Virus record (IMG/VR): IMGVR_UViG_3300029911_001887
Span: 1 to 20,143 of that record
Length of the DNA: 20,143 bases
Direction: 5' to 3' (one strand)
Origin: a virus
Shown: positions 1,363 to 15,700 of the stretch, piece by piece
How the letters are laid out: every line of letters begins with the position of its first letter
Position numbering within the stretch: the first letter of the stretch is position 1
Program-made: the position numbers and the translations under genes
Notes under the pieces: model-generated
What the model was told of the DNA's origin: nothing
Databases searched by the model: none
Seen by the model: only the letters and a program-made list of their open reading frames with translations

Positions 1363-2030
1363 TCGGCAAGGGCTACCTCATCGGCGCCGCCGGCCTCGCC
1401 CTGGTGCTGGCCGGCATCTTCATGTACCGGGACCACAGCCAGGGCAAACGGGACCAAGCGCACATCCAGCAGGCCAACGTGGACCAGGGGGCGTCCCAGG
1501 CCGCCGCCAAACAGGGGGATCAGCATGCCGCAGCCGCCCAGGAAATCGCCCCGGCCATCGCCACCGACGATCAAAACGTTTCCCGCCTGCAGGCTCAAGT
1601 GGCGCGGCTGCGGGCGGCCGCTCCTCGCCCCCCTGGTCCCGATCCCCTGCCTGGAATGCCCGACCCTGAGCCTGCGTCGGTTCCTCCTGAGCTGGATCTG
1701 GCGAAGGATGCCCTGATCGCCGCCCAAGCCAAGGACATCACCGACCTGAAGGCCCAGAACCTGCAGCTCACCCTGGCCGACCAGGATCACCGGCAGGCCT
1801 TCGTCCAGGATGACGCCGCGGTGGGCGAGCTGCGCCAGGCCATCCATCCCACATACCGGCGGGCCGCCGGGCTGCTCTATGCCCCAGGCCAGTCGGCCGT
1901 GGGCGTCATCGTGGAGCAGGACATCGCCCGGGTGCGGGTGGTGGGCGAGCTGATCCAGCAGGGCCTGCCGGCAATGGCCGGGGGCAAATCCCAAACCCTG
2001 GCGCTTGTTGGCGCCGCCATCACCTTCTGA
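1359..2030 (+). CDS. Spanin-like (Rz-type) membrane-anchored coiled-coil protein
   Basis: This 223-residue protein starts with one N-terminal hydrophobic helix (about residues 5-23) after a short positive stretch. Long helical, Ala/Gln-rich segments follow (about 30-85 and 110-150), broken by a Pro-rich hinge (about 88-110), with a globular C-terminal part. This is the arrangement of an inner-membrane spanin (Rz), which spans the periplasm and fuses the inner and outer membranes in the last step of lysis. The assignment rests on architecture and position, not recognised homology. No embedded or overlapping outer-membrane lipoprotein partner (Rz1) with a lipobox was found. The GTG start overlaps the previous stop by 4 bases, with GAGAAGG upstream. 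Confidence 0.7.
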   Translation: MIGKGYLIGAAGLALVLAGIFMYRDHSQGKRDQAHIQQANVDQGASQAAAKQGDQHAAAAQEIAPAIATDDQNVSRLQAQVARLRAAAPRPPGPDPLPGMPDPEPASVPPELDLAKDALIAAQAKDITDLKAQNLQLTLADQDHRQAFVQDDAAVGELRQAIHPTYRRAAGLLYAPGQSAVGVIVEQDIARVRVVGELIQQGLPAMAGGKSQTLALVGAAITF

Positions 2031-2040
2031 GGAAACCATC

Positions 2041-2403
2041 ATGCCTGAAATCATCAGTTCCAACCTGATCCACATCATCTGGGCTCTCGTCGCCCTGGCG
2101 GCGCTGTTCCTGGGCCACTACTGGTCCAACCTCAAGGCCGATGCCGCGAAGGGGGCGGCCATCGCCGAAGCGGACGCCAAGAAGATCAAGGCAGCCGCGG
2201 AGGTTCTGGGCGATGGGGTTGAGTCCTTCCTGGCCAAGGTCTCCACCCGGGTGAAGGCTGACTTCGAAGCCGACAAAGCCAAGGCGGATGCCGAAGCTGC
2301 CAAGGCCTTGGCCGAAGCCCAGAAGTTCGAAGCTGCCGTTGAAGCTGCTGTGGCTGCCAAGACCGCCGCTTCCGCCGCGGCCCCGGCCGCCCCCGTGGTT
2401 TGA
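2041..2403 (+). CDS. Single-TM, alanine-rich helical protein
   Basis: This is a 120-residue protein with one N-terminal membrane helix (about residues 8-28). A long, highly charged Ala/Lys/Glu helix follows (about 30-105), ending in an Ala/Pro tail. The likely topology is N-terminal anchor with a periplasmic or cytoplasmic helical rod. A longer in-frame ORF begins at 2005, but that start lies inside the previous gene. TGAGGA sits 6-7 bases before the ATG at 2041, so the shorter form is preferred. It sits in the lysis cassette beside two other single-TM coiled-coil proteins and could be an accessory holin, antiholin or spanin part. The actual role is unknown. Confidence 0.75.
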   Translation: MPEIISSNLIHIIWALVALAALFLGHYWSNLKADAAKGAAIAEADAKKIKAAAEVLGDGVESFLAKVSTRVKADFEADKAKADAEAAKALAEAQKFEAAVEAAVAAKTAASAAAPAAPVV

Positions 2404-2408
2404 TTTAG

Positions 2409-2759
2409 ATGACGCCCCAGCTGATCCTCGGCTATTGCACCCTCATCCTGGCGATCATCGGCGGGATCTGGGGGATCATCCGGCTGCTTCTGCTCCGGGA
2501 CCGAAAAAACCTGGAGGACCAACAGCGAACCATGTGGGAAAAGCTGGACGCCATGCGCAAGGAACTCTCTGCGGCTCAGCAGGAGTTGGGAATTCTCCGG
2601 GAGCGCGTCCGGGCCCTTCCGGACCAGAAGGAGTTCTCCGCCCAGCTTCAGGCCCAGGAGGAGAAGCTGGACCGCAAGCTTCAGGCCTTGGCCCAGCAGA
2701 TCCAGGAGTCCTTCGTCCAGGCCACACAGAGGTTCCGCTGCCCCCACGATCCCGGCTGA
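2409..2759 (+). CDS. Single-TM coiled-coil protein (DUF2730-like architecture)
   Basis: This 116-residue protein has an N-terminal hydrophobic helix (about residues 4-28), then a basic RDRK stop-transfer segment. A long coiled coil rich in Gln, Glu, Leu and Lys follows (about 32-108). The layout resembles the Mu gp25/DUF2730 class found near phage lysis genes, but that is similarity of shape only. It starts 5 bases after the previous stop with a weak ribosome-binding site, so coupling to the upstream gene is likely. It is the last protein gene of the lysis cassette, followed by the tRNA-like element and a terminator. Confidence 0.73.
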   Translation: MTPQLILGYCTLILAIIGGIWGIIRLLLLRDRKNLEDQQRTMWEKLDAMRKELSAAQQELGILRERVRALPDQKEFSAQLQAQEEKLDRKLQALAQQIQESFVQATQRFRCPHDPG

Positions 2760-2779
2760 CGCGCCCATGACCATGATCC

Positions 2780-2883
2780 GCTGGGGTGTCGGAGTGGATT
2801 AACGATGACACCTGCAAGACGGGGGCGGTGGGGCAGGAAACCCAATACCGTCAGCGCCATGGGTTCGAATCCCATCCCCAGCA
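2780..2883 (+). tRNA. tRNA-like element, non-canonical; amino acid not assignable
   Basis: The ends are textbook tRNA. A perfect 7-bp acceptor stem (GCTGGGG / CCCCAGC) is followed by discriminator A. A 5-bp T stem (ATGGG / CCCAT) holds the loop TTCGAAT. The 5' part TGTCGGAGTGGATTAACGA looks like a class II (serine-type) D arm. The middle does not fold normally. CTGCAAG would give anticodon GCA, but its flanks do not pair. At 104 nt it is much longer than a normal tRNA. An alternative cloverleaf uses TGTC/GACA (2787-2790 / 2807-2810) and CCTGC/GCAGG (2811-2815 / 2833-2837) with a 17-base G-rich loop. CCA is not encoded. It fills the gap between the last lysis gene and a terminator. It may be a phage tRNA, a degenerate tRNA or a tRNA mimic. 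Confidence 0.5.
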
Positions 2884-2908
2884 CCTTTTCAACGAATGAT
2901 CACCCCCC

Positions 2909-2930
2909 AAGCCCCCCTCACCGGGGGCTT
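2909..2930 (+). terminator. Terminator hairpin after lysis cassette
   Basis: A perfect 8-bp stem (AAGCCCCC / GGGGGCTT) with a CTCACC loop is followed by CCTCTTGCC, a weak U-tract. It is homologous to the hairpin at 253-277, where the U-tract is intact, so termination here may be leaky and allow read-through into the head genes. Confidence 0.62.
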
Positions 2931-2972
2931 CCTCTTGCCCTAAATCGTCGTCATCCCATGACGACAGTCGGC
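2911..2972 (+). repeat. Direct repeat copy 2: terminator plus palindrome cassette
   Basis: This is the second copy of the cassette at 254-314. It has the same hairpin core, the same spacing to the palindrome within one base, an identical palindrome and a following CGGC. It separates the lysis unit from the head-tail unit. Confidence 0.75.
2947..2965. promoter_or_regulatory. 19-bp palindromic operator candidate, copy 2
   Basis: This is the identical GTCGTCA-TCCCA-TGACGAC inverted repeat, 49 bases upstream of the first structural gene. The region after it (CCGCAT, then GGAGG) also parallels copy 1, suggesting a shared leader for the lysis and head-tail transcripts. A standard promoter cannot be identified with confidence. 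Confidence 0.5.
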
Positions 2973-3013
2973 TTTTGAATCCGCCGCATCCTCCATCGTG
3001 GAGGTAGGGGCAA

Positions 3014-3586
3014 ATGGCGTATAACCCCATGGGATGGCCGGATAGCTCTAAGAACGTAGAGCCCACGGAAATCTGTGCGGGGGATTCTGTCATCTGGAAC
3101 CAGGCGGTGGAGGGCTATTCCTCTGGCCAGAACTGGGTCCTGACTTACTACCTGCAGATGATGGGCCAGCCGGTCGTGAGCATCCCGACCACGGCGGACC
3201 CGGACGGCATGAGCTTCGACGTCAACGTGCCGGACACCACCACGGCCAGCTGGGCGCCCGGGCAGTACGCCTGGAAGGCTGTCATCAGCGGCACCGGCCC
3301 AAACGCCGGCCAGCGGTTCACCGTGGCCTGGGCGGAGCTGGTGGTCCGGCCGGACCCCACGCAGACCTATGACAGCCGGTCCCACTTCCGGAAGTGCTAT
3401 GAAGCCGTCACGGCGGTGATCGAGGGCCGGATGTCCGATCCGATCACCCGCTACAAGATCGGCGACACCGAGGCTTTCAAGCTCGCCCACATCGACCTGA
3501 TCAAGCTCCAGGCCTTCTATGCCGCCCGGTTGCGCACCGAGGCCGGGCGCCCGCTCATTACCGTTCACCCCGTGGTGCTCCATTGA
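3014..3586 (+). CDS. Head-connector candidate: Ig-like domain fused to gpW-like domain
   Basis: This 190-residue protein appears to have two parts. Residues about 1-118 are beta-rich, with GDSVIWNQ and SWAPGQYAWKAVISG-type strands and an Ig-like look. Residues about 122-185 are helical, with a charged beta-turn segment (ITRYKIGDTEAFKLAHIDL) and a terminal Arg/Glu-rich helix. The second part resembles lambda gpW in size and pattern; gpW is the head-completion protein that stabilises DNA and prepares the head for tail joining. The position just before the portal also fits gpW. A strong GGAGG lies 9 bases upstream of the ATG. The next gene starts inside its stop codon. Domain calls are by eye and need a profile search. 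Confidence 0.68.
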   Translation: MAYNPMGWPDSSKNVEPTEICAGDSVIWNQAVEGYSSGQNWVLTYYLQMMGQPVVSIPTTADPDGMSFDVNVPDTTTASWAPGQYAWKAVISGTGPNAGQRFTVAWAELVVRPDPTQTYDSRSHFRKCYEAVTAVIEGRMSDPITRYKIGDTEAFKLAHIDLIKLQAFYAARLRTEAGRPLITVHPVVLH

Positions 3587-5166
3587 ACCCGCTACGCTGG
3601 ATTGGCATCGGCCGCAAGGCCACCAGTGAGGATCCCGCCACGGTGGCCACCATCGCCACCCTGGTCAACCATGCCCGGCATGAAGGATTCCAGCGCGGCC
3701 AGCAGGCCTATATGGGCTATGCCGGTGGGAACGTCAATTCTCGGACCGTCAATTTCAGCGTGGCCCTGGAGAGCGCGAACAAAGAAGTCAAACGGGACAT
3801 CCGGGCGCTCCGGGCCCACAGCCGCACCCTGGCCCGGGACAACGGGTTCATGGTCCGCTACCTGGGCCTATGCTGCACCAACATCCTCGGGCCTTACGGC
3901 ATCGCCTTCGACAGCGTCATCACCGGCAATTCCGACAAGCCCAAGAAGGCCTGGAACAAGGCCATCAAGGACGCCTGGAAGCTCTGGGGCAAGGACGCCA
4001 CGGTGGACGGCATGGCCTGGACCGACTTCGAACACCTGGTGCTCACCACGGTGGTCACGGATGGAGAGGCCTTCGTGCGCAAGGTGCCGGGCTTCCCCAA
4101 TGCCTTCGGCTTCGCACTCGAACTGATCGACGCGGACAGGGTGGATTGGACCTGGAACGTCGCGCCGGCCCAGGGCCAGAACGAAGTGATCATGGGCGTC
4201 GAAATCGACAAGTGGGGCCGGCGGGTCGCCTACTGGGTCTGGACCGCGCACCCCACCGACCTGGCCCTGGACCGCAAGCGCGTCCGGATCCCCGCCAGCG
4301 AGATCATCCACATTGGCCGGGCGGACCGCACGCGCCGCACCCGGTTCAACCCCTGGGCCACCGGAGTCATGACCTTCCTGAACCTGGTGGGCCGCTACTG
4401 GAATTCCGAAATCGTGGCTGCCAACTGGGAGGCGGACCGCCTCGGGTTCCTGACCTCCGAACTCGGCACCATGGACCCCTCGGATGGCGGTGAGGAGCTG
4501 GCCGACCCGACCACCCTGCAGGTGCAGAGCGACGTGGCCCAGTTCGTGGGCCTCCCCGCCGGCGTGAAGGCCGAGTTCCCGGCCATCCAGCACCCCAGCA
4601 CGGCATTCGACCCTTTCAGCAAAGCCCTGCTCCGTGGAATCTCCGTGGGCCTGGGTGTGGCCTACCACTCCCTCACCGGGGACGTGGGCGCCGCGAACTA
4701 CAGTTCCGCCCGGGTGGCCCTGCTGGACGAACGCGACAACTGGCGCAAGCACCAGGGCTGGTTCGTGCGGGGCTTCCACGACAAGATTTTCCCCGACTGG
4801 CTGGATATGGCCGTCCTCTCACGCCAGGTGGACATTCCCGTCACCGACCCGGGCAAGCTCTGCGCCCCCCAGTGGTATCCCCGCGGCTGGCAGTGGATCG
4901 ACCCCCAGAAGGATACCGACGCCAGCAAAGCGGCAATCGCCGGGGGCTTCACCACCCTGCAGGCGGTCTGTGCCGAGCAGGGCGATGACTGGGAGGAAAT
5001 CCTCGTCCAGCGGTCCCTGGAGCAGGCGCGTGCCAAGGAGCTCGGCCTGTTCCTGGACTACACCACCAAGGGAATGATGCCGCCCCAGGAGGCCGCCGCA
5101 GATGCGCCGGCGTCCGCAGAGGCAGCCACCGAAAAAGATGGCACCGCAGGAGGCCAGAATGGCTAA
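3583..5166 (+). CDS. Phage portal protein, lambda family
   Basis: This is a 527-residue protein, the usual length for lambda gpB-type portals. The portal forms the dodecameric ring at one head vertex through which DNA enters and leaves. Recognisable features include the N-terminal NFSVALESANKEVKRDI segment with RDNGFMVRYLGL (about residues 85-96). The ANYSSARVALLDERDNW motif (about 371-387) is highly characteristic of this family. A Pro/Ala-rich tail ends the protein. The TTG start overlaps the previous stop in a TTGA arrangement, so it is probably translationally coupled. Its stop overlaps the next gene by 8 bases. No terminase genes lie beside it, which is unusual for a lambda-type head module. 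Confidence 0.95.
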   Translation: MNPLRWIGIGRKATSEDPATVATIATLVNHARHEGFQRGQQAYMGYAGGNVNSRTVNFSVALESANKEVKRDIRALRAHSRTLARDNGFMVRYLGLCCTNILGPYGIAFDSVITGNSDKPKKAWNKAIKDAWKLWGKDATVDGMAWTDFEHLVLTTVVTDGEAFVRKVPGFPNAFGFALELIDADRVDWTWNVAPAQGQNEVIMGVEIDKWGRRVAYWVWTAHPTDLALDRKRVRIPASEIIHIGRADRTRRTRFNPWATGVMTFLNLVGRYWNSEIVAANWEADRLGFLTSELGTMDPSDGGEELADPTTLQVQSDVAQFVGLPAGVKAEFPAIQHPSTAFDPFSKALLRGISVGLGVAYHSLTGDVGAANYSSARVALLDERDNWRKHQGWFVRGFHDKIFPDWLDMAVLSRQVDIPVTDPGKLCAPQWYPRGWQWIDPQKDTDASKAAIAGGFTTLQAVCAEQGDDWEEILVQRSLEQARAKELGLFLDYTTKGMMPPQEAAADAPASAEAATEKDGTAGGQNG

Positions 5167-8337: not shown

Positions 8338-9288
8338 ATGGGCACCAACTTCGGCGGCATGGCTGCCGCAAACGCCAACTGGTTCCGGCCCGGAGCCGGG
8401 AAGCTGTTCATCCTGCCCTATCCCAACCCCAGCCAAGAGGTGGGTAAGGTCACCGTCACCGTTCCTGGCACCACCTTCGTCCAAGGCGCCCTCTGCACCT
8501 TCGCCGGTGGTGGATCCAGCGTCATCCGGCAGGCCCAGGGCTTCGCCAACGTGGCCGGGGGCATCATCACCAGTATCACCATCACCGACCCGGGCGCGGG
8601 CTACACCACGGTTCCTACCTGCACGGCCGCCGGGGGCACCGGCGCGACCCTGACCCCGGCCCTGGGCCTCGCCACCGGGCCCCTGATCTGGCTGGCGCCC
8701 CCGGCATCCCCGGCGTTCAGCGACTACCAGGCCGGATGGCTCCAGCGGCTCTACCTGGATCCCACCAGCTGCCAGACCCTGAACCCGCTCATCACACCCT
8801 GGGGCTTCCTCACGGCGGACGGGCTCAAGGTCAAATTCGACCAGGAAGACCTGAAGGTCAACCCGAACGATGGCCCCGAGTTCATCCTGGCCGCCCAGGA
8901 CCTGCTGGTCTCCGGCGAGTTCACCTTCCTGGACGTGAACATTGACCACTTGGTGGATGGTCTGTCCACCCCGGCCGGGAACATCACCGTCATCGCGGGA
9001 AGCGCGGGCAAGGCGGGCCGGACCAGGATCGGGATGGGATCCGAGCGGGCCCTGAACAAGTACCTCCTTATCTACCGGCAGCCCAGCACCGTCTACCCGG
9101 GCGATTTCGACCACCTGGTGATCCCCCGGGCGACCATCAATATCAGCGCGGAGATGGCATTCAGCAAGAGCAAGGCTGTGGACCTGAAGGTCTCCTTCAG
9201 TGCTCAGCCGGAAACCAGCCTCACCAGCCCGTTCAACGGCGAGTACTGCACCTCGCTGTGGGACATGGCCACCGCGCCGCGGCAGTAA
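8338..9288 (+). CDS. Major tail tube protein with inserted beta domain
   Basis: This 316-residue protein is called as the tail tube subunit. It follows the U-like gene and precedes the G/T chaperones, the lambda V position, and has a strong GAGGAG before the ATG. Residues about 1-37 and 113-316 look like one tube domain, with strands such as GLKVKFDQEDLKVNPN and FSKSKAVDLKVSFSAQPE. Between them (about 38-112) lies a segment of a different style, with SITITDPGAGYTTVPTCTAA then GGTGATLTPAL. This is the GxGYT...PT...GGxGTGA motif seen in surface beta repeats of phage and adhesin proteins. Such a domain would decorate the outside of the tail tube. The functional call is by context. Confidence 0.78.
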   Translation: MGTNFGGMAAANANWFRPGAGKLFILPYPNPSQEVGKVTVTVPGTTFVQGALCTFAGGGSSVIRQAQGFANVAGGIITSITITDPGAGYTTVPTCTAAGGTGATLTPALGLATGPLIWLAPPASPAFSDYQAGWLQRLYLDPTSCQTLNPLITPWGFLTADGLKVKFDQEDLKVNPNDGPEFILAAQDLLVSGEFTFLDVNIDHLVDGLSTPAGNITVIAGSAGKAGRTRIGMGSERALNKYLLIYRQPSTVYPGDFDHLVIPRATINISAEMAFSKSKAVDLKVSFSAQPETSLTSPFNGEYCTSLWDMATAPRQ

Positions 9289-9298
9289 GGGAGAGACG

Positions 9299-9712
9299 AT
9301 GCAGAGCACCCGCAGGTTTGAAATGGGGCTCCCGCTGTTCGGCGGGCTTGACCTGGGCCTCATCATGGGCGCCCAGGTCAAGCTCAAGAGCGGCGATTTC
9401 CAGGGCCTCTCAGCCATGGTGGAGACGCTGGGGAAGGCCGGGGCCCTCCACACCATCCGGAAGCTGGCCGCCATCTGGACGGCCTCCAAGATCGAGTTGA
9501 AGGAGGCGGAATCGAACCCGGCGATCATGGCCGAGTTGGAGGACCGGGCAGCTGCTGCGCCGTTCGCGGAATCCTTCAAGGCCGCCATGGATTTTCAATC
9601 AGCTCTGTGGGAACGGCTGGGAGTTACCCCCGACTCTTCGGACGCCACAGGGGGCAAGAAGACCAAGGGGAAACAGGCCCAGGACTCGGCCGCTTCCCCC
9701 TCCGGCGCCTGA
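9299..9712 (+). CDS. Tail assembly chaperone, lambda G-like
   Basis: This 137-residue, largely helical protein sits between tail tube and tape measure, where nearly all siphoviruses encode the tail assembly chaperone. It binds the tape measure protein and recruits tube subunits. The fold is one short beta/loop N-terminus (RRFEMGLPLFGGLDLG), then helices about residues 30-100, then a low-complexity Lys/Gln/Ser tail (about 115-137). The ATG at 9299 has GGGAGA upstream; an earlier in-frame ATG at 9200 lies inside the tube gene and is rejected. The end of the gene overlaps a -1 frame ORF, giving the usual G and G-T pair. Confidence 0.82.
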   Translation: MQSTRRFEMGLPLFGGLDLGLIMGAQVKLKSGDFQGLSAMVETLGKAGALHTIRKLAAIWTASKIELKEAESNPAIMAELEDRAAAAPFAESFKAAMDFQSALWERLGVTPDSSDATGGKKTKGKQAQDSAASPSGA

Positions 9713-9906
9713 TCGCATCGAAGGTGGGGGGCTGGGAGCAGGCGGCCCGGCTCCCCATCATCGACGCCCTGGCCATCGCGGACCGTGACCTTCGGGAGCA
9801 GGCCCGGGAAGCCCTTCGGCATGCCCAGGTCTGCTGGCACAGCGCCCTCCCGATCTACGCCAACGGCGGCACACCACCGGACCCACCCGAACTGACCGAA
9901 GACTGA
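9607..9906 (+). CDS. T domain ORF, expressed as G-T fusion by -1 frameshift
   Basis: This ORF lies in the -1 frame relative to the G-like gene and overlaps its last 35 codons. It has no convincing start of its own: the ATG at 9607 is inside the G-coding helix region and has no ribosome-binding site. It is therefore expected only as a G-T fusion of about 202 residues. The T-specific part runs from near 9673 to the stop at 9904-9906. It is helical (WEQAARLPIIDALAIADRD, then REQAREALRHAQVCWH) with a Pro-rich acidic end. In lambda the T domain binds the tube protein while G binds the tape measure. The tape measure gene follows 13 bases later. Confidence 0.75.
   Translation: MGTAGSYPRLFGRHRGQEDQGETGPGLGRFPLRRLIASKVGGWEQAARLPIIDALAIADRDLREQAREALRHAQVCWHSALPIYANGGTPPDPPELTED
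9667..9673 (+). promoter_or_regulatory. Candidate -1 frameshift slippery site GGGGAAA
   Basis: In the zero frame the codons are GGG AAA, preceded by G. After a one-base backward slip the P-site codon re-pairs perfectly (GGG to GGG). The A-site codon AAA moves to GAA, a first-position mismatch. This is a weaker match to X-XXY-YYZ than the lambda site but the best in the overlap between the two reading frames (9607-9712). Confidence 0.55.
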
Positions 9907-9919
9907 ATGAGGACGCGCC

Positions 9920-12256
9920 ATGGCCAATGAGATGAAGATCACCATCACCGGAGATGCTTCATCGGCCATGGCGGTCCTCGATCAGTTCCAGGCCAAGATG
10001 TTCGCCTCTGTGGACGAGATGACTGGAGGTTTCGGGAAGCTGGCCGCCGGCATCGGCGGGGTGGCCGGGATCGCCGGGGCCCTGGCCGGGAAGGTCATGG
10101 AGGGGTTCAAGGCCGTTGGGGAGTTCGCCCCGGAAGCCAGCGCCCAAGTCAACGAACTTGCCAGGACGTTCGAGGGGCTCCAGTTCCAGACCGGTGAGGG
10201 ACTGCATAACCTGAACGTGTTCGACGCCACCATGAAGCTCACGGGCGGCACCATCGAGCAGTTGAGCGGGTGGCTCACCGGCGTCACCCGGGCCATGAAG
10301 TCAAATTCCGAGGTGTTCATCGCCAACGGCGTGGCCGCCTCCCAGGCCGCGCTCATGCACATGCAACCGATCGAGGTGATGCGGGGCGCCCTGGCGGTGA
10401 TCGAGGGCGAGACCGACCAGACCAAAAGGCTGATCCTGGCCCAGGAGATGCTGGGCCGCGGGGCCATCGAGGAGCTGCCCCAGATGCGGCGGTTCTTCGA
10501 GAACATCGGTGAAGGCACGGAAGCCCTGGAAAAATATGGCATAGCGATTGATGACAGTGGCATTGAGCGCATGAAGCGGATGGAGAAGGAAGCCGGTCTG
10601 CTCAACATCCAGATGGATGCGCTGAAGCGGGGGGTTGCGGAGAACTACGAGCCCTGGGACAAGTTCTTCGCGATGATGAACAGCAACCTGCTGAAATTCG
10701 CATCGTATGCGCTCCAGGCCGTCAATGGCGCGGGGTCTGTGCTCAAGTTCATTATGGACCCGACTGAAGCCATCAACGAGATGATGGCAAAAGAAGGTGC
10801 TGGAATTCTCGCCAAATCCCCCGAGGGCCAGCGTGAGCAAATGCGCGGCGTTGGTCATGCCGGTGATGGCCAACACGCCCAGACCAAAGAGGAAATTGAA
10901 GCGGCAAAGGCCGCCGCAAAGAAGGCCCAGGAGGAATCCAGGAAGGCAGCCGCCGCCGCGGCCCGGGAGAAGAAGGAGGACCTGGAGGTGAACAACAACC
11001 TCCAGGAGCAGACCAACCGCCTCAATGCGGAGGACATCAAGACCATCGGCGCCAGCACCATCGCCTTGAAGAAGGAGCGGGATGAGAAGGAGGCCCTGGC
11101 CAAGCTGAACGAGGAATATCATAAGATCGACCTGGAACTGGCCAAGTCCCCCACGGCGGCGAACCAGGCGCAGGCCCAGGAAGCGAACATCGCTGCGCAC
11201 AAGGCCTACATGGACCGGATGCTGCAGATCAAGCGGGAATCCGATGCCGCCCAGCTGGCTGAGGATGCCGCCACCAAGGACGCCTTGGATGCCGCGAACA
11301 AGAAGGCCCTCGAGGACCTCCGGAAGTCCCTGGCCCAGCAGAGTGAGATCCAGGGCAAGATGACCCGGGGTGAGATCGAGGAAAAGCTCAAGGCCGAAAC
11401 CGCCAAGGGTGGACCGCAGGCCCACGCTGCGCTGCAGTACATGGTTGAAGCGCACTGGAACGGTACGGCCGCCGGTGGGGCCCTGGCCGGGATGCATGAC
11501 TTCGTGGCTCAGGGCGACAACCTGTTCAACTCGTTCCGGTCCACCACCCTACAGGCCATGACGGGTATCCAGGATGGCGTGGCCCACAGCATCGAGGGCA
11601 TCCTGGAGCACACCGAGTCGGGCGCCCAGGCCATGAAGGCGTTTGGCAAGAGCGTTGAGACCTCCGTCATTGGGGCCCTGGCCAAGATGGCCGCCCAGTA
11701 CCTGATGACGGCCGCCGCCGGCGCCGCGTTCAGCACGGCATCCATGGCCGGCGCAATGCTCCAGGAAACCGCCGCCGAATCCCTGGCCACCGCTGAGATC
11801 TGGGCCGCATGGGCTCCCCTTTCTCTGGTGGGCGGCGAGGCCGCGGCGCTGGCGGAGATCGCGATCATGACCGGAAGCATTGCGGCCGCCTCCAAGGTGG
11901 CCTCCGGCACCGGCGGGAAGTTCGCGACGGGCGGCCTGATCGACACCCCCACTCTGGCCCTGATGGGCGAGGCGGGCCCGGAGCTCGTGGCGCCGGAACA
12001 TGACTTCAAGGACTGGGCCAACGCCCATCAAAACCTGGGCTACAACCTCGCCAGCCATGCGAATCAGGTTTCCCGCCTCGGTGCCCAGGCCGGTAGCTAT
12101 GGCCGCGCTGGACTGGCGCAGAACGGCGGCGCGATGCCGTCCCATGTCGCGATCGACGCTCGAGGCGCGATCTTCGCCAGCACCACCGAAGGTCAGCGCG
12201 CCATCGACAAGATGGTCAACAGCAGCAATCAGCGGATCGGGAGGGCCACCGGATGA
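9920..12256 (+). CDS. Tail tape measure protein
   Basis: This 778-residue protein is stretched inside the tail tube, sets tail length and is later ejected. The evidence starts with its position after the G-T chaperone. A hydrophobic Gly/Ala segment lies near the N-terminus (about residues 38-58). A long charged coiled coil follows (about 315-500; AAKAAAKKAQEESRKAAAAA). A hydrophobic region lies at about 585-665. The C-terminal motif FATGGLIDTPTLALMGEAG then PELVAPE (about 668-694) is highly typical of tape measures. By the usual scaling of about 0.15 nm per residue the tail would be near 115 nm; this is an estimate. The ATG has GAGGA upstream. Its stop overlaps the next gene by 4 bases. Confidence 0.92.
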   Translation: MANEMKITITGDASSAMAVLDQFQAKMFASVDEMTGGFGKLAAGIGGVAGIAGALAGKVMEGFKAVGEFAPEASAQVNELARTFEGLQFQTGEGLHNLNVFDATMKLTGGTIEQLSGWLTGVTRAMKSNSEVFIANGVAASQAALMHMQPIEVMRGALAVIEGETDQTKRLILAQEMLGRGAIEELPQMRRFFENIGEGTEALEKYGIAIDDSGIERMKRMEKEAGLLNIQMDALKRGVAENYEPWDKFFAMMNSNLLKFASYALQAVNGAGSVLKFIMDPTEAINEMMAKEGAGILAKSPEGQREQMRGVGHAGDGQHAQTKEEIEAAKAAAKKAQEESRKAAAAAAREKKEDLEVNNNLQEQTNRLNAEDIKTIGASTIALKKERDEKEALAKLNEEYHKIDLELAKSPTAANQAQAQEANIAAHKAYMDRMLQIKRESDAAQLAEDAATKDALDAANKKALEDLRKSLAQQSEIQGKMTRGEIEEKLKAETAKGGPQAHAALQYMVEAHWNGTAAGGALAGMHDFVAQGDNLFNSFRSTTLQAMTGIQDGVAHSIEGILEHTESGAQAMKAFGKSVETSVIGALAKMAAQYLMTAAAGAAFSTASMAGAMLQETAAESLATAEIWAAWAPLSLVGGEAAALAEIAIMTGSIAAASKVASGTGGKFATGGLIDTPTLALMGEAGPELVAPEHDFKDWANAHQNLGYNLASHANQVSRLGAQAGSYGRAGLAQNGGAMPSHVAIDARGAIFASTTEGQRAIDKMVNSSNQRIGRATG

Positions 12257-12738
12257 CCTTTATCAAGCCGGGCACCCCCCGCATCGCACTCTTGAACATC
12301 AACCGAAGCTGGGCCGGAGGCTATGCCTCGGTCAACTACCTGCCTTCTCCCAACGCGGAAGACGGGGTCAGCTTCGAGTGGATTGAGAAGCGGGTGACCG
12401 TGCCGCTCATTGACGGATCCGAGGCGACCCGCCGGCTTGGGTGGATCCCCGAACTGGTTTTGAAATGGTCGGTATACAACGATTTGATGTCAATGAATGG
12501 CTATCAGATCGGTTCTGCCAATGGATGCCAGCTGGATTTTCCGTCCCTGCTGGCCCTGCTGGATAACCCGGTCGGGTCGCTATTTGTAAGCCCTGGACCG
12601 ACCTACGGCGGGTTCATTGCCGAGACGGTAACCATCGGCGCCATGGGTATCAAGAAGGGCCTGCCCGTCGCCAAGGACGTGGCGATCACGTTCCGGGCCG
12701 GAACAATCTATTCCCGCAAAGTTCTGGGGGCCTTCTGA
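12253..12738 (+). CDS. Distal tail / minor tail protein candidate
   Basis: This 161-residue, mainly beta protein lies between the tape measure and the giant hub protein, the place of distal tail (Dit) or lambda M-like minor tail proteins. These form the ring joining tail tube to tip. No family motif is certain. Visible strands include FEWIEKRVTVPLIDGSEATR, LGWIPELVLKWSVYND and a C-terminal AKDVAITFRAGTIYSRKVLG. The ATG overlaps the tape measure stop (ATGA) with GGGAGG upstream, and the next gene overlaps its stop by one base, so it is tightly coupled to both. Lambda has several genes here (M, L, K, I); this phage has one, so it may combine roles. Confidence 0.65.
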   Translation: MTFIKPGTPRIALLNINRSWAGGYASVNYLPSPNAEDGVSFEWIEKRVTVPLIDGSEATRRLGWIPELVLKWSVYNDLMSMNGYQIGSANGCQLDFPSLLALLDNPVGSLFVSPGPTYGGFIAETVTIGAMGIKKGLPVAKDVAITFRAGTIYSRKVLGAF

Positions 12739-15700
12739 TGGCCAGGACCATAACCTGCAACCTCTGGCAGAATCCTGGCACCACCACCCCGGGCGCCCTG
12801 AAGGTGGTCTCTGGCCAGATTTTCGAACTGGCCGAAATCAACCAGGAGGTGGACGGCGAGGGCAATCTCAGCAAGGTCAAGCCTGGCACTCTCACCACCA
12901 AGGTGGGCGATCCAGACGGTTCGATCTGGACCTTCATCCTGAACTCCCTGGCGTCCACCGATGTCAACAATAAGCCCGAGCTGCTGCCGCCCTGGTTCGA
13001 ACTCTACGCCGACAGCACCAGGCTGTTCCTTGGCACCGTGGACCCGTCGACCCTGAAAAATCGGCAGGCGGCCGATGACTATTCCATCGAGATGAAGGTG
13101 GTGGACTGGTCCATGCAACTGGCCAATTCATACCTCGGGAGCCCGTCCGCGCCCCAGTGGGAAGGCGGCACGAACTATCCCGCCAACACCCTGATCCTCA
13201 ACGGTTCCAATCTCTACTTGTCCATTGTGGGCGGGGTGAGCAGCACCACGAGCAACGGCCCGACCGGAATCACCTCGGGATCCCTTTGGACCCCCTCCAC
13301 CACCTATTCAGAGGGCAACCAGGTCATCAACGGGGCGATGGGATACCAGTGCGTCACGGCGGGCACCTCAATGGCCGCAGGACCCGCAGGGACGGGGTCT
13401 TCCATTTCTGATGGAACCGTCACCTGGGAATACACCGGTGTGGCAACGACCGGAGGGGTTCCCTGGTCCGATTCCACAGCCTATATCGTGGGGAATCAGG
13501 TCATCAACGGTGGCAGCGCCTATCAGTGCACTGTGGGTGGAATCTCCGCGTCTGCTGGCCCAACGGGCGCCGGATCGGCCATCACGGACGGGACCGCAAT
13601 CTGGGAATACACCGGCCCTGCGGCCGTGGACGGGACCGTCACCTGGAGCTACGTTCCGCCCTCCTGGCAGCGGCCAGTCCCGATTCAGGCATCCAACGGA
13701 GCAGCCGTCACCCAAAAGGGGTTTTCATTCACCTATGGGAGTTCGATAAACAATTTCACACAGTTGAGCCGCCCGGGCCTGTCGACAGGGCTCCATCCGA
13801 ACGACGTGTATTTTCCGGATCCCCAGGGGGCATGGGCCACTCAATCGCAGGTGCTCACCTGTGATTATCCGGTGTTCATGGCGGACATAAATATTCCCGG
13901 CGAGGCCCCCGTTCAAACGGCACATGCGGATTTTTACCCCTACGGAGGGTCCCAAACGTCCGTCTGGTGGGAACCCGATGGGAGTTTCGGCGACGGGTAT
14001 TGGATATTCACATGGACGTTACCCACCTCTATCCCGGATCTATTCTTACCCTCCTTGCAGTTCCCCCCGGGCACCATCGCCCAGGCCGCGCTTGACCCTC
14101 TGGGCCAGCAGTACATGGTTGGCGGGATCGCCCCAACCGGGGACACCGGGTTCCCCGCGAACACCTGGAACCTCGTGAGTCAGCTATCCGGTGGCATACA
14201 GGTGTGGTCCGCCCCGCCCTCGCTCTACCCGAAATCTGGCACCCCTGGCACCATCACCGACAGCAAAGACCAGACCGTGCTGCAATATTGCCCGGCGGAC
14301 CCGGCTTATGACCAGACCACGAACCCGGCCTATTCAGGTCCTTACAACTGCGCGACCCTCAATCCAACGCCCTGGCCGGCCATCTCTTTCATCCCTCAAT
14401 ATGGGCAACTCTCCAATCTCAACTGGGCTCCGGGCAACTGGGCGGCGAATTTCTCCCTTGCCAATCCTTCCTCGCAGGATGTGGAGTTCTGGACCGTGAT
14501 GGTCGGGATCACCGCTGCGCAGAACTACATCGACCTGGATCACGTCAACGGCATCGTCCTCGGTGACGGGCTGCAAGCCACTGGGGGATCCTCCTGGACG
14601 GTCGCAGGCGTGGATCCGATCCTTAACCGGATCACCACCATCGAATCCATCTCTTCCCTGGATCCGGGCACCCACATCTACTGGACCACCGACAGCCAGT
14701 TGGAAATGGTGATGGAGGATCCGCGCATTGTTTTGCAGAAGGCCGTGGCTCCCTTCACGGTGGACCTCTCCCAATTTGTTGCGCCCCAGACCAAGGAGCC
14801 GATGTTCTCCTTCCTGCCGAGCCGGGGGCTGGCTAAATCGGCACTCGACAGCCCCCTGTATGCCATCGGTGACATCGAACCGACCCTGAACGGGATCAAG
14901 CCCAGCGTGGGCGCGATCTGGATCAACCCCGCCACCGGCGCCCGGATGCCTTCCTACAGCTGGACAGGAAACCCCGATGACGGTTGGCAGGGCCCCGCGT
15001 CGGTGCCCTACGCGCCCAATGCGGACTGGACCTGCCAGCTACTCACTCCGCCGGCGAGCCTGATGCCGTACGAAGTCTTTGCCTTCAACCCATGGCAGAG
15101 GCTCCGCAACCGGGCCTACGCGGATCTGTACCGGCGCGAGAGCAACGGCCTTATGCAGATCACCACTGCGTCTGGCCTCATCCTGGCCAACGCGGATTAC
15201 GTGTCCATCGTGAGCGTCCAACAGCCCTTGACCTCCGAGATCACGTTTACCTATGTCCAGAACGGGCAGACCTACTCCGGGACCACGACCAGCTCGGCCA
15301 GTGGGTATGTCGCTAATTTTGCCTTTTGGACCACCGTGGGGGCCAACGTCGCCGGGCCCCTCGTAGCCTATGACTACGTGGGAATGCAGCGTTTCGTGTT
15401 CAATGCCACGGCAGATGGAAGCCTCCAGGTGACTCCCTGGACCGGCTCGACCTGGGGCGCCCCGGTGGGCTACTCCTGGCCCGGCGGAAAGACCATTCAG
15501 AGCGCAATCGCCATGGCCGGGAACATCCTGGCCTATGCCAATACCACCATTTACTCGGGCACCGTCAACGGGAGCCCCTGGCAGTCGGCGTCCACCTCTG
15601 CTGACCACCTGGAACTCTGGGGGCTCTCGGGCGGGCTCGTCGCATCGCTCTCCCTGGCCAACTACCCCGCGCTCATTGGGGGAACGCTCGTCACCACCCC

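Follow-up and report, generated by a model that had tools for sequence, protein, structure and literature searches.

A family of phage RNAs with a tRNA-like upper half and a predicted pseudoknot in place of the anticodon stem

Phage tRNAs have been linked to host defences that target tRNA (PMC10264068, PMC11455837). Imitation of tRNA by other RNAs is also described; PMC12282133 cites tRNA mimicry for the Y RNAs of bacteria, and, in the intergenic IRES of dicistroviruses, pseudoknot I mimics the pairing of a codon with an anticodon (PMC3517527). Here we analysed a 20,143-base phage record from IMG/VR (the window, i.e. the whole stretch of DNA at its full length), in which an earlier note, made from the letters alone, had pointed out a tRNA-like RNA with perfect ends and an unusual core. 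That note had left a tRNA mimic, a novel class II tRNA and a decaying tRNA side by side; our results support the mimic and speak against both a class II decoding tRNA and decay. No description of the RNA was found in the open-access PMC literature; an earlier description may exist elsewhere, and the family to which the RNA belongs is apparently undescribed.

The locus and its relatives

The window encodes endolysin, head-tail joining, portal, capsid/protease and tape-measure proteins. The 104-base RNA locus (2780-2883, plus strand, as are its parts and the downstream hairpin given below) is flanked by an ORF at 2409-2759 on one side and, on the other, by the gene for head-tail joining at 3014. 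The Rfam tRNA model (RF00005) spanned exactly 2780-2883 with 35.2 bits (gathering score 29), leaving 43 bases of the core unaligned, and ARAGORN called no tRNA in the window. Neither the tRNA-Sec model (RF01852) nor the YrlA model (RF02553) matched the window, and neither a match to the tmRNA model (RF00023) nor a tag reading frame was found in it. The minimum-energy fold of the RNA contained one of the helices described below (P3b) and was only moderately better than that of shuffled sequences (z -1.90). A terminator-like hairpin with a weak T run lies downstream of the RNA (2913-2927), and taken alone is not above shuffled expectation. Elsewhere in the window, ORFs 9200-9712 and 9607-9906 overlap just upstream of the tape-measure gene, the usual site of the frameshifted tail chaperone pair; the sequence GGGGAAAC at 9667-9674 is not in the phase expected for a frameshift.

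A distant BLAST match from the window (69% over 107 bases, E = 0.03) was obtained with Sinorhizobium phages phiM12, phiM7, phiM19 and phiN3, in which the matching stretch is intergenic and unannotated. BLAST with phiM12 and window queries gave further matches, at sites that had gone unrecognised, in Vibrio phage V6Aob and Agrobacterium phages OLIVR1-3. Each of these matches was weak singly, and the non-tRNA core was common to all of them. IMG/VR was scanned with patterns, each of which omitted a different part of the RNA. A first, narrow scan returned known members only. Pattern 1 comprised the end of the D loop, TGA, ATAC and the T arm, and pattern 2 the same elements without TGA; of the further patterns, one left out the T arm and acceptor and another the D arm. 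The scan that specified neither T arm nor acceptor gave four members, all carrying both, and the scan free of the D arm gave at least 40 members bearing a D arm, three ordinary tRNAs having been removed. The architecture thus recurs in at least about 79 loci of otherwise different and unrelated phages (34 scored with the model described below, the 4 and at least 40 from the two scans, and E. coli phage mEp390), a count which includes a few near-identical copies from related contigs, and is thus far beyond a chance resemblance. Its carriers are the Sinorhizobium phiM12 group, Agrobacterium OLIVR1-3, Vibrio V6Aob, E. coli phage mEp390 and huge phages, with complete or partial genomes reaching 607 kb.

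A covariance model (R1) built on 17 members scored the first subtype at 70-98 bits, with 70-83 bits for members outside the model-building set and at most 57 bits for phage tRNA-Ser; E-values of the model are rough. Some members carry extra hairpins in the D loop, are 115-142 nt long and score 47-67 bits. Since these scores overlap those of tRNA-Ser, membership is decided here by the pseudoknot together with the GUG/NAUAC motif. In the 15 records searched whole there was exactly one strong match per record. The RNA was annotated in none of the carrier records examined, and Rfam models run over the family yielded weak tRNA matches only.

BLAST against plasmids returned nothing. The first-subtype pattern, which fits 25 of 30 first-subtype members and does not fit the subtypes with D-loop insertions, gave eight matches in 84,980 bacterial and archaeal genomes, none of them a member. 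The pattern free of the D arm gave two matches in 398 + 398 genomes, one an ordinary tRNA-Ser (L295) and the other a D-loop-insertion member in a bacterial genome of the sampled phylum (L294; strand CGCGC-UAGA, loop GCGCG-ACA, 37 bits). Therefore, the family is carried chiefly by phages and seldom occurs in the sampled host genomes.

Several other tRNA-like RNAs were seen in the course of these searches. Two borderline relatives (L138 5984-6094 and L140 4947-5059; 48-54 bits) have a different and larger core, with AUUAGU/ACUAAU complementarity in L140. Overlong tRNA-like matches scoring well below the family occur in tRNA arrays of L135 (360-477, 597-721 and 843-976), and likewise, with low scores, of L139 (5777-5875 and 6321-6445) and L156 (8028-8144); these may be further odd tRNA-like RNAs. 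Streptomyces phage Satis (L168, about 305-427) carries an unannotated tRNA-like RNA in which the acceptor is paired 7/7 and the anticodon position is taken up by a very long loop.

Architecture of the RNA

In the 17-member alignment, 95.5% of cells were paired in the proposed helices and both sides changed in 17 of 22 pairs. The covariation score was 0.882, as compared to 0.200 ± 0.024 for shuffled alignments and at most 0.18 when the partners were slid. As judged by this comparison of sequences, the upper half of a class II tRNA (acceptor, D arm, T arm and C48) is shown to be retained by selection and the anticodon arm to be lacking; the variable region has expanded to form a bulged hairpin (P3a-P3b-NAU-P3c), and the loop of this hairpin pairs with the strand leaving the D stem, so that a pseudoknot helix replaces the anticodon stem. 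Conservation of the D loop, TGA, ATAC and the T arm is partly circular because the scan patterns demanded these elements. Not circular are the pseudoknot, P3c, the pairing of the D stem and acceptor, C48 and, in the first two scans, GUG; the D arm was also present in members recovered by the pattern that does not specify it.

The 7-bp acceptor and the T arm with TTCGAAT, both described as perfect in the earlier note, were confirmed in the sequence. The acceptor strands GCTGGGG (2780-2786) and CCCCAGC, the latter followed by base 73, an A (together 2876-2883), pair 7/7, with covariation in all seven pairs of the helix. The T arm ATGGG TTCGAAT CCCAT (2859-2875) was recognised by Rfam, with 98.8% of its cells paired. 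The pairing of acceptor and T arm is conserved in the relatives, and these helices covary across phages; a few members have mismatches in the acceptor stem. Equivalents of U8 and G9 follow the acceptor (2787-2788), column 8 of the alignment being invariant and column 9 nearly so. The D arm, TCG / GAGTGGATTAA / CGA (2789-2805), also recognised by Rfam, is of the 3-bp class II type, its helix being paired in 100% of cells with covariation in 3/3 pairs. The T stem is preceded by CC (2857-2858), of which the last is equivalent to C48; C was present here in 19/19 non-redundant members, which is consistent with a retained Levitt pair. The RNA had been called serine-like, and this holds for the class II type of its D arm and fails for the serine identity elements (G73 and fixed acceptor pairs), which are not conserved. 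Base 73 was A in 12/19 members and the 1:72 pair varied, so that charging by one particular synthetase is not indicated, and serine-specific charging in particular is ruled against.

The absence of a standard anticodon stem held throughout the family, since the 5-bp stem was missing in 18/18 members (2-4 chance pairs), as compared to 5/5 pairs in two phage tRNA-Ser controls. The core is instead built on a hairpin with a conserved bulge. Helix P3b pairs GGCGGT (2824-2829) with ACCGTC (2847-2852), was paired in 94.1% of cells and covaries; it ends in G-U/A-C, and its G-C and U-A pairs adjoining the bulge are near invariant. On its 3' side follows a bulge of three bases, NAU in the aligned members and AAT in the window (2844-2846), and then P3c (GGG, 2830-2832, with CCC, 2841-2843), which was paired in 98.0% of cells with covariation. 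GUG on the 5' side and the C before the bulge were near invariant, though absent from the first two scan patterns. An outer stem, P3a, beside the T arm is supported by a swap test of the kind given below for the pseudoknot, with a score of 167 against 105 ± 14 (0/100,000); the window copy is without it. P3c is closed by a loop of 5-10 bases, in the window GCAGGAAA (2833-2840).

Almost all members have, directly downstream of the D stem, a strand complementary to this loop. In the window its first five bases (2833-2837) pair with CCTGC (2811-2815), and the pairs differ from member to member: CCUGC/GCAGG in the window, CCAGA/UCUGG in V6Aob, and in other phages GUUCAGC/GCUGAAC (L132), UUCUGGU/ACCAGAA (L097), ACUAGG/CCUAGU (L155), CACUGG/CCAGUG (L236) and GGUAAC/GUUACC (L201). 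When loops were swapped among 26 non-redundant members, the score with own loops was 330, as compared to 180 ± 16 with swapped loops (0/50,000); an earlier loop-swap test gave own-loop complementarity of 237 against 129 ± 14 (0/100,000). A few members (L130, L196, L092 and L251) have just three pseudoknot pairs, which are weak individually. The pseudoknot strand is followed by an A-rich linker, AAGA in the window (2816-2819) and UAGA/AAGA-like in the family, within which the triplets vary. Of the alternative cloverleaf put forward earlier, CCTGC/GCAGG is thus retained, as a pseudoknot, and TGTC/GACA is not conserved (55.9% of cells paired, no excess over shuffles). The pseudoknot that had been suggested between GACGG and CCGTC fared no better, with 35.3% of cells paired and likewise no excess over shuffles; the bases CCGTC (2848-2852) are part of P3b and not a partner of the loop. 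Since the gap between the D stem and the pseudoknot is short and the linker is only about 4 bases long, the NAU bulge would be the point at which the hairpin has to turn back. We infer that the pseudoknot helix would lie roughly at the position of the anticodon stem, with the hairpin in place of the class II variable arm.

Genomic neighbours and 3' ends

In large phages, the RNA is often located within tRNA arrays: a gap of 6 nt separates it from the preceding tRNA-Gly in V6Aob and from the following tRNA-Ser in L121, tRNA-Leu precedes it by 4 nt in L149, and in L126, a 607-kb phage, it lies among four tRNA-Ser genes. In several small phages it stands by itself, close to genes for lysis or packaging; its neighbours in OLIVR1, L148 and L155 are replication or tRNA-modification genes. 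No neighbouring gene common to the carriers was found in the surroundings of the members. The copy in L148 (region 1830-4850) lies between two ORFs whose matches to a single DNA polymerase profile (phrog_17) cover neighbouring halves of it, 474-826 and 832-1234; on these matches, the pair is a split polymerase gene. Another carrier, L131, also encodes GOLLD RNA and tmRNA (11170-11586 and 12471-12843).

CCA is encoded in 13 of the 64 listed members, including phiM12, and T runs occur close downstream in some members. In mEp390 the RNA ends with A-CCA, and a hairpin bearing a long T run comes next. No CCA is encoded in L117 and OLIVR1, and in V6Aob it is one base out of register, although the neighbouring tRNAs encode CCA.

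Proposed function and comparison with described RNAs

We propose that the locus is the gene for a non-decoding tRNA-like RNA of a widespread, unannotated phage family. Its transcript, with a predicted length of about 104 nt for the window and about 125 nt for mEp390, would be trimmed by the enzymes with which the host matures its tRNAs (RNase P, 3' nucleases and CCA addition); tRNA biology leads one to expect that RNase P would process such an RNA, that CCA would be added to it and that it could not decode. The matured RNA would keep the tRNA elbow and a CCA end, read no codons and act in trans, and would occupy or sponge a host factor that recognises the acceptor or elbow of class II tRNAs, the likeliest candidates being a toxin or defence enzyme that targets tRNA ends, or some other enzyme that binds tRNA. 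This reading as a whole, a family gene for a tRNA mimic that matures like tRNA and occupies a tRNA-binding factor, is in our judgement probably correct. A decoy is preferred because of the link already drawn between phage tRNAs and tRNA-targeting defences, and because the sequence of the acceptor varies while its pairing is kept.

A decoding class II (serine-type) tRNA with an unusual presentation of the anticodon, or a tRNA with a small intron, would account for the tRNA-like D arm, T arm and acceptor, for the score above the Rfam gathering threshold and for the position among tRNA-Ser genes in L126. It is nevertheless very unlikely, since the anticodon stem is missing from all members compared, the linker triplets vary and the serine identity bases are not kept; an intron is argued against by a core which is a conserved pseudoknot and not a removable insertion. 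A decaying tRNA or a chance fold would fit the single sequence, which resembles a tRNA with a ruined core and folds only moderately better than its shuffles, but phages unrelated to one another share this core, with compensatory changes in it. Decay is excluded by this conserved, covarying core, and the probability that we give to decay or chance together is negligible. It is hardly more plausible that the RNA is a phage Y RNA of the YrlA kind, a partner of the Ro60/Rsr (TROVE) protein. TROVE is encoded in 4/19 carrier records, but also in 4/35 control records (one carrier among the 35), all four of them large phages, and the complete records of phiM12, V6Aob and OLIVR1 are without it. Moreover, the YrlA model was over its cut-off in 0/17 records, and two carriers with a TROVE gene (G001 and G006) have, as in the control phages, a separate YrlA-like RNA beside it. 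A role as Ro60 partner is thus contradicted by TROVE in the controls and by the separate YrlA-like RNAs of TROVE phages. These large phages, with TROVE and a YrlA-like RNA match within about 1-1.2 kb, carry phage-borne Ro60-Y RNA loci (MH576962.1 85923-87086; MN988523.1 138168-140025; ON529852.1 197740-199118; and, in the two carriers, G001 245866-247757 and G006 142113-143868).

The gene order around some copies would suit a late-operon or packaging RNA acting with terminase or portal. Head-tail joining and portal genes lie downstream in the window, the RNA is placed between terminase and portal in L118 and between head morphogenesis and scaffold genes in L103, it is beside the terminase small subunit in L125 and near head/packaging genes in L097, and in mEp390 it follows the lysis cassette, with terminase at the other end of the genome. 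We regard such a role as improbable, since it leaves the intact tRNA elbow unexplained and does not fit the copies within tRNA arrays of large phages or beside the replication and tRNA-modification genes of OLIVR1, L148 and L155. Action on the ribosome, in which the pseudoknot helix would imitate a codon-anticodon helix and block or reprogram a tRNA site, draws on the place of this helix at the anticodon stem and on the viral IRES precedent; a fixed anticodon-like triplet is absent, and we consider it unlikely. Equally doubtful is the wider version in which the tRNA upper half and the pseudoknot helix together would imitate a codon-engaged tRNA, a ready-made tRNA-mRNA mimic that may block or redirect the ribosome or a tRNA-sensing defence.

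With dozens of unrelated phages carrying it, a tRNA imitation unable to translate appears to be a widely shared phage tool of putative use, and the retention of a mimic lacking the decoding end would imply that phages repeatedly need to engage the machinery that binds tRNA, without translation. The family is a concrete lead for RNA-based anti-defence or host take-over, and a whole RNA family in phage genomes that tRNA scanners have overlooked. With its encoded CCA and its own terminator-like hairpin, the mEp390 copy makes the function open to testing in E. coli.

Among described RNAs, class II phage tRNA-Ser (RF00005) shares with the family the acceptor, the 3-bp D stem with its GAGnGGnTTAA loop, the T arm with TTCGAAT, U8, C48 and the location in tRNA arrays, whereas the family is without an anticodon arm and its variable region has become a bulged hairpin, the loop of which is pseudoknotted below the D stem. 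tmRNA (RF00023) likewise combines a tRNA upper half with a non-decoding body containing a pseudoknot; the family differs in its length of about 104 nt, its real D stem, its single pseudoknot and the lack of a tag reading frame. Y RNA/YrlA (RF02553) has tRNA mimicry and occurrence in phages in common with the family, the ends of which, however, form a tRNA acceptor and not a Ro60-binding stem. T4 species 1 RNA (rnaC) resembles the family as a stable phage RNA that lies within a tRNA cluster and has a perfect T arm, but is 139 nt long and without the GUG/NAUAC hairpin. T4 rnaC and rnaD were rejected as members, rnaC scoring only 22 bits with R1. In rnaC (L158 909-1047), the 3' part combines the T arm with a 7-bp pairing like that of an acceptor (CGGAACG/CGTTTCG), and the loop of a hairpin in it, CGTCAA, is complementary to an upstream TTGACG; rnaC is possibly a distant analogue of the family. 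GOLLD and ROOL (PMC12286853) are comparable as structured RNAs of phages that lie near tRNA islands and have no known function; they differ in being large and cage-forming and in lacking a tRNA upper half.
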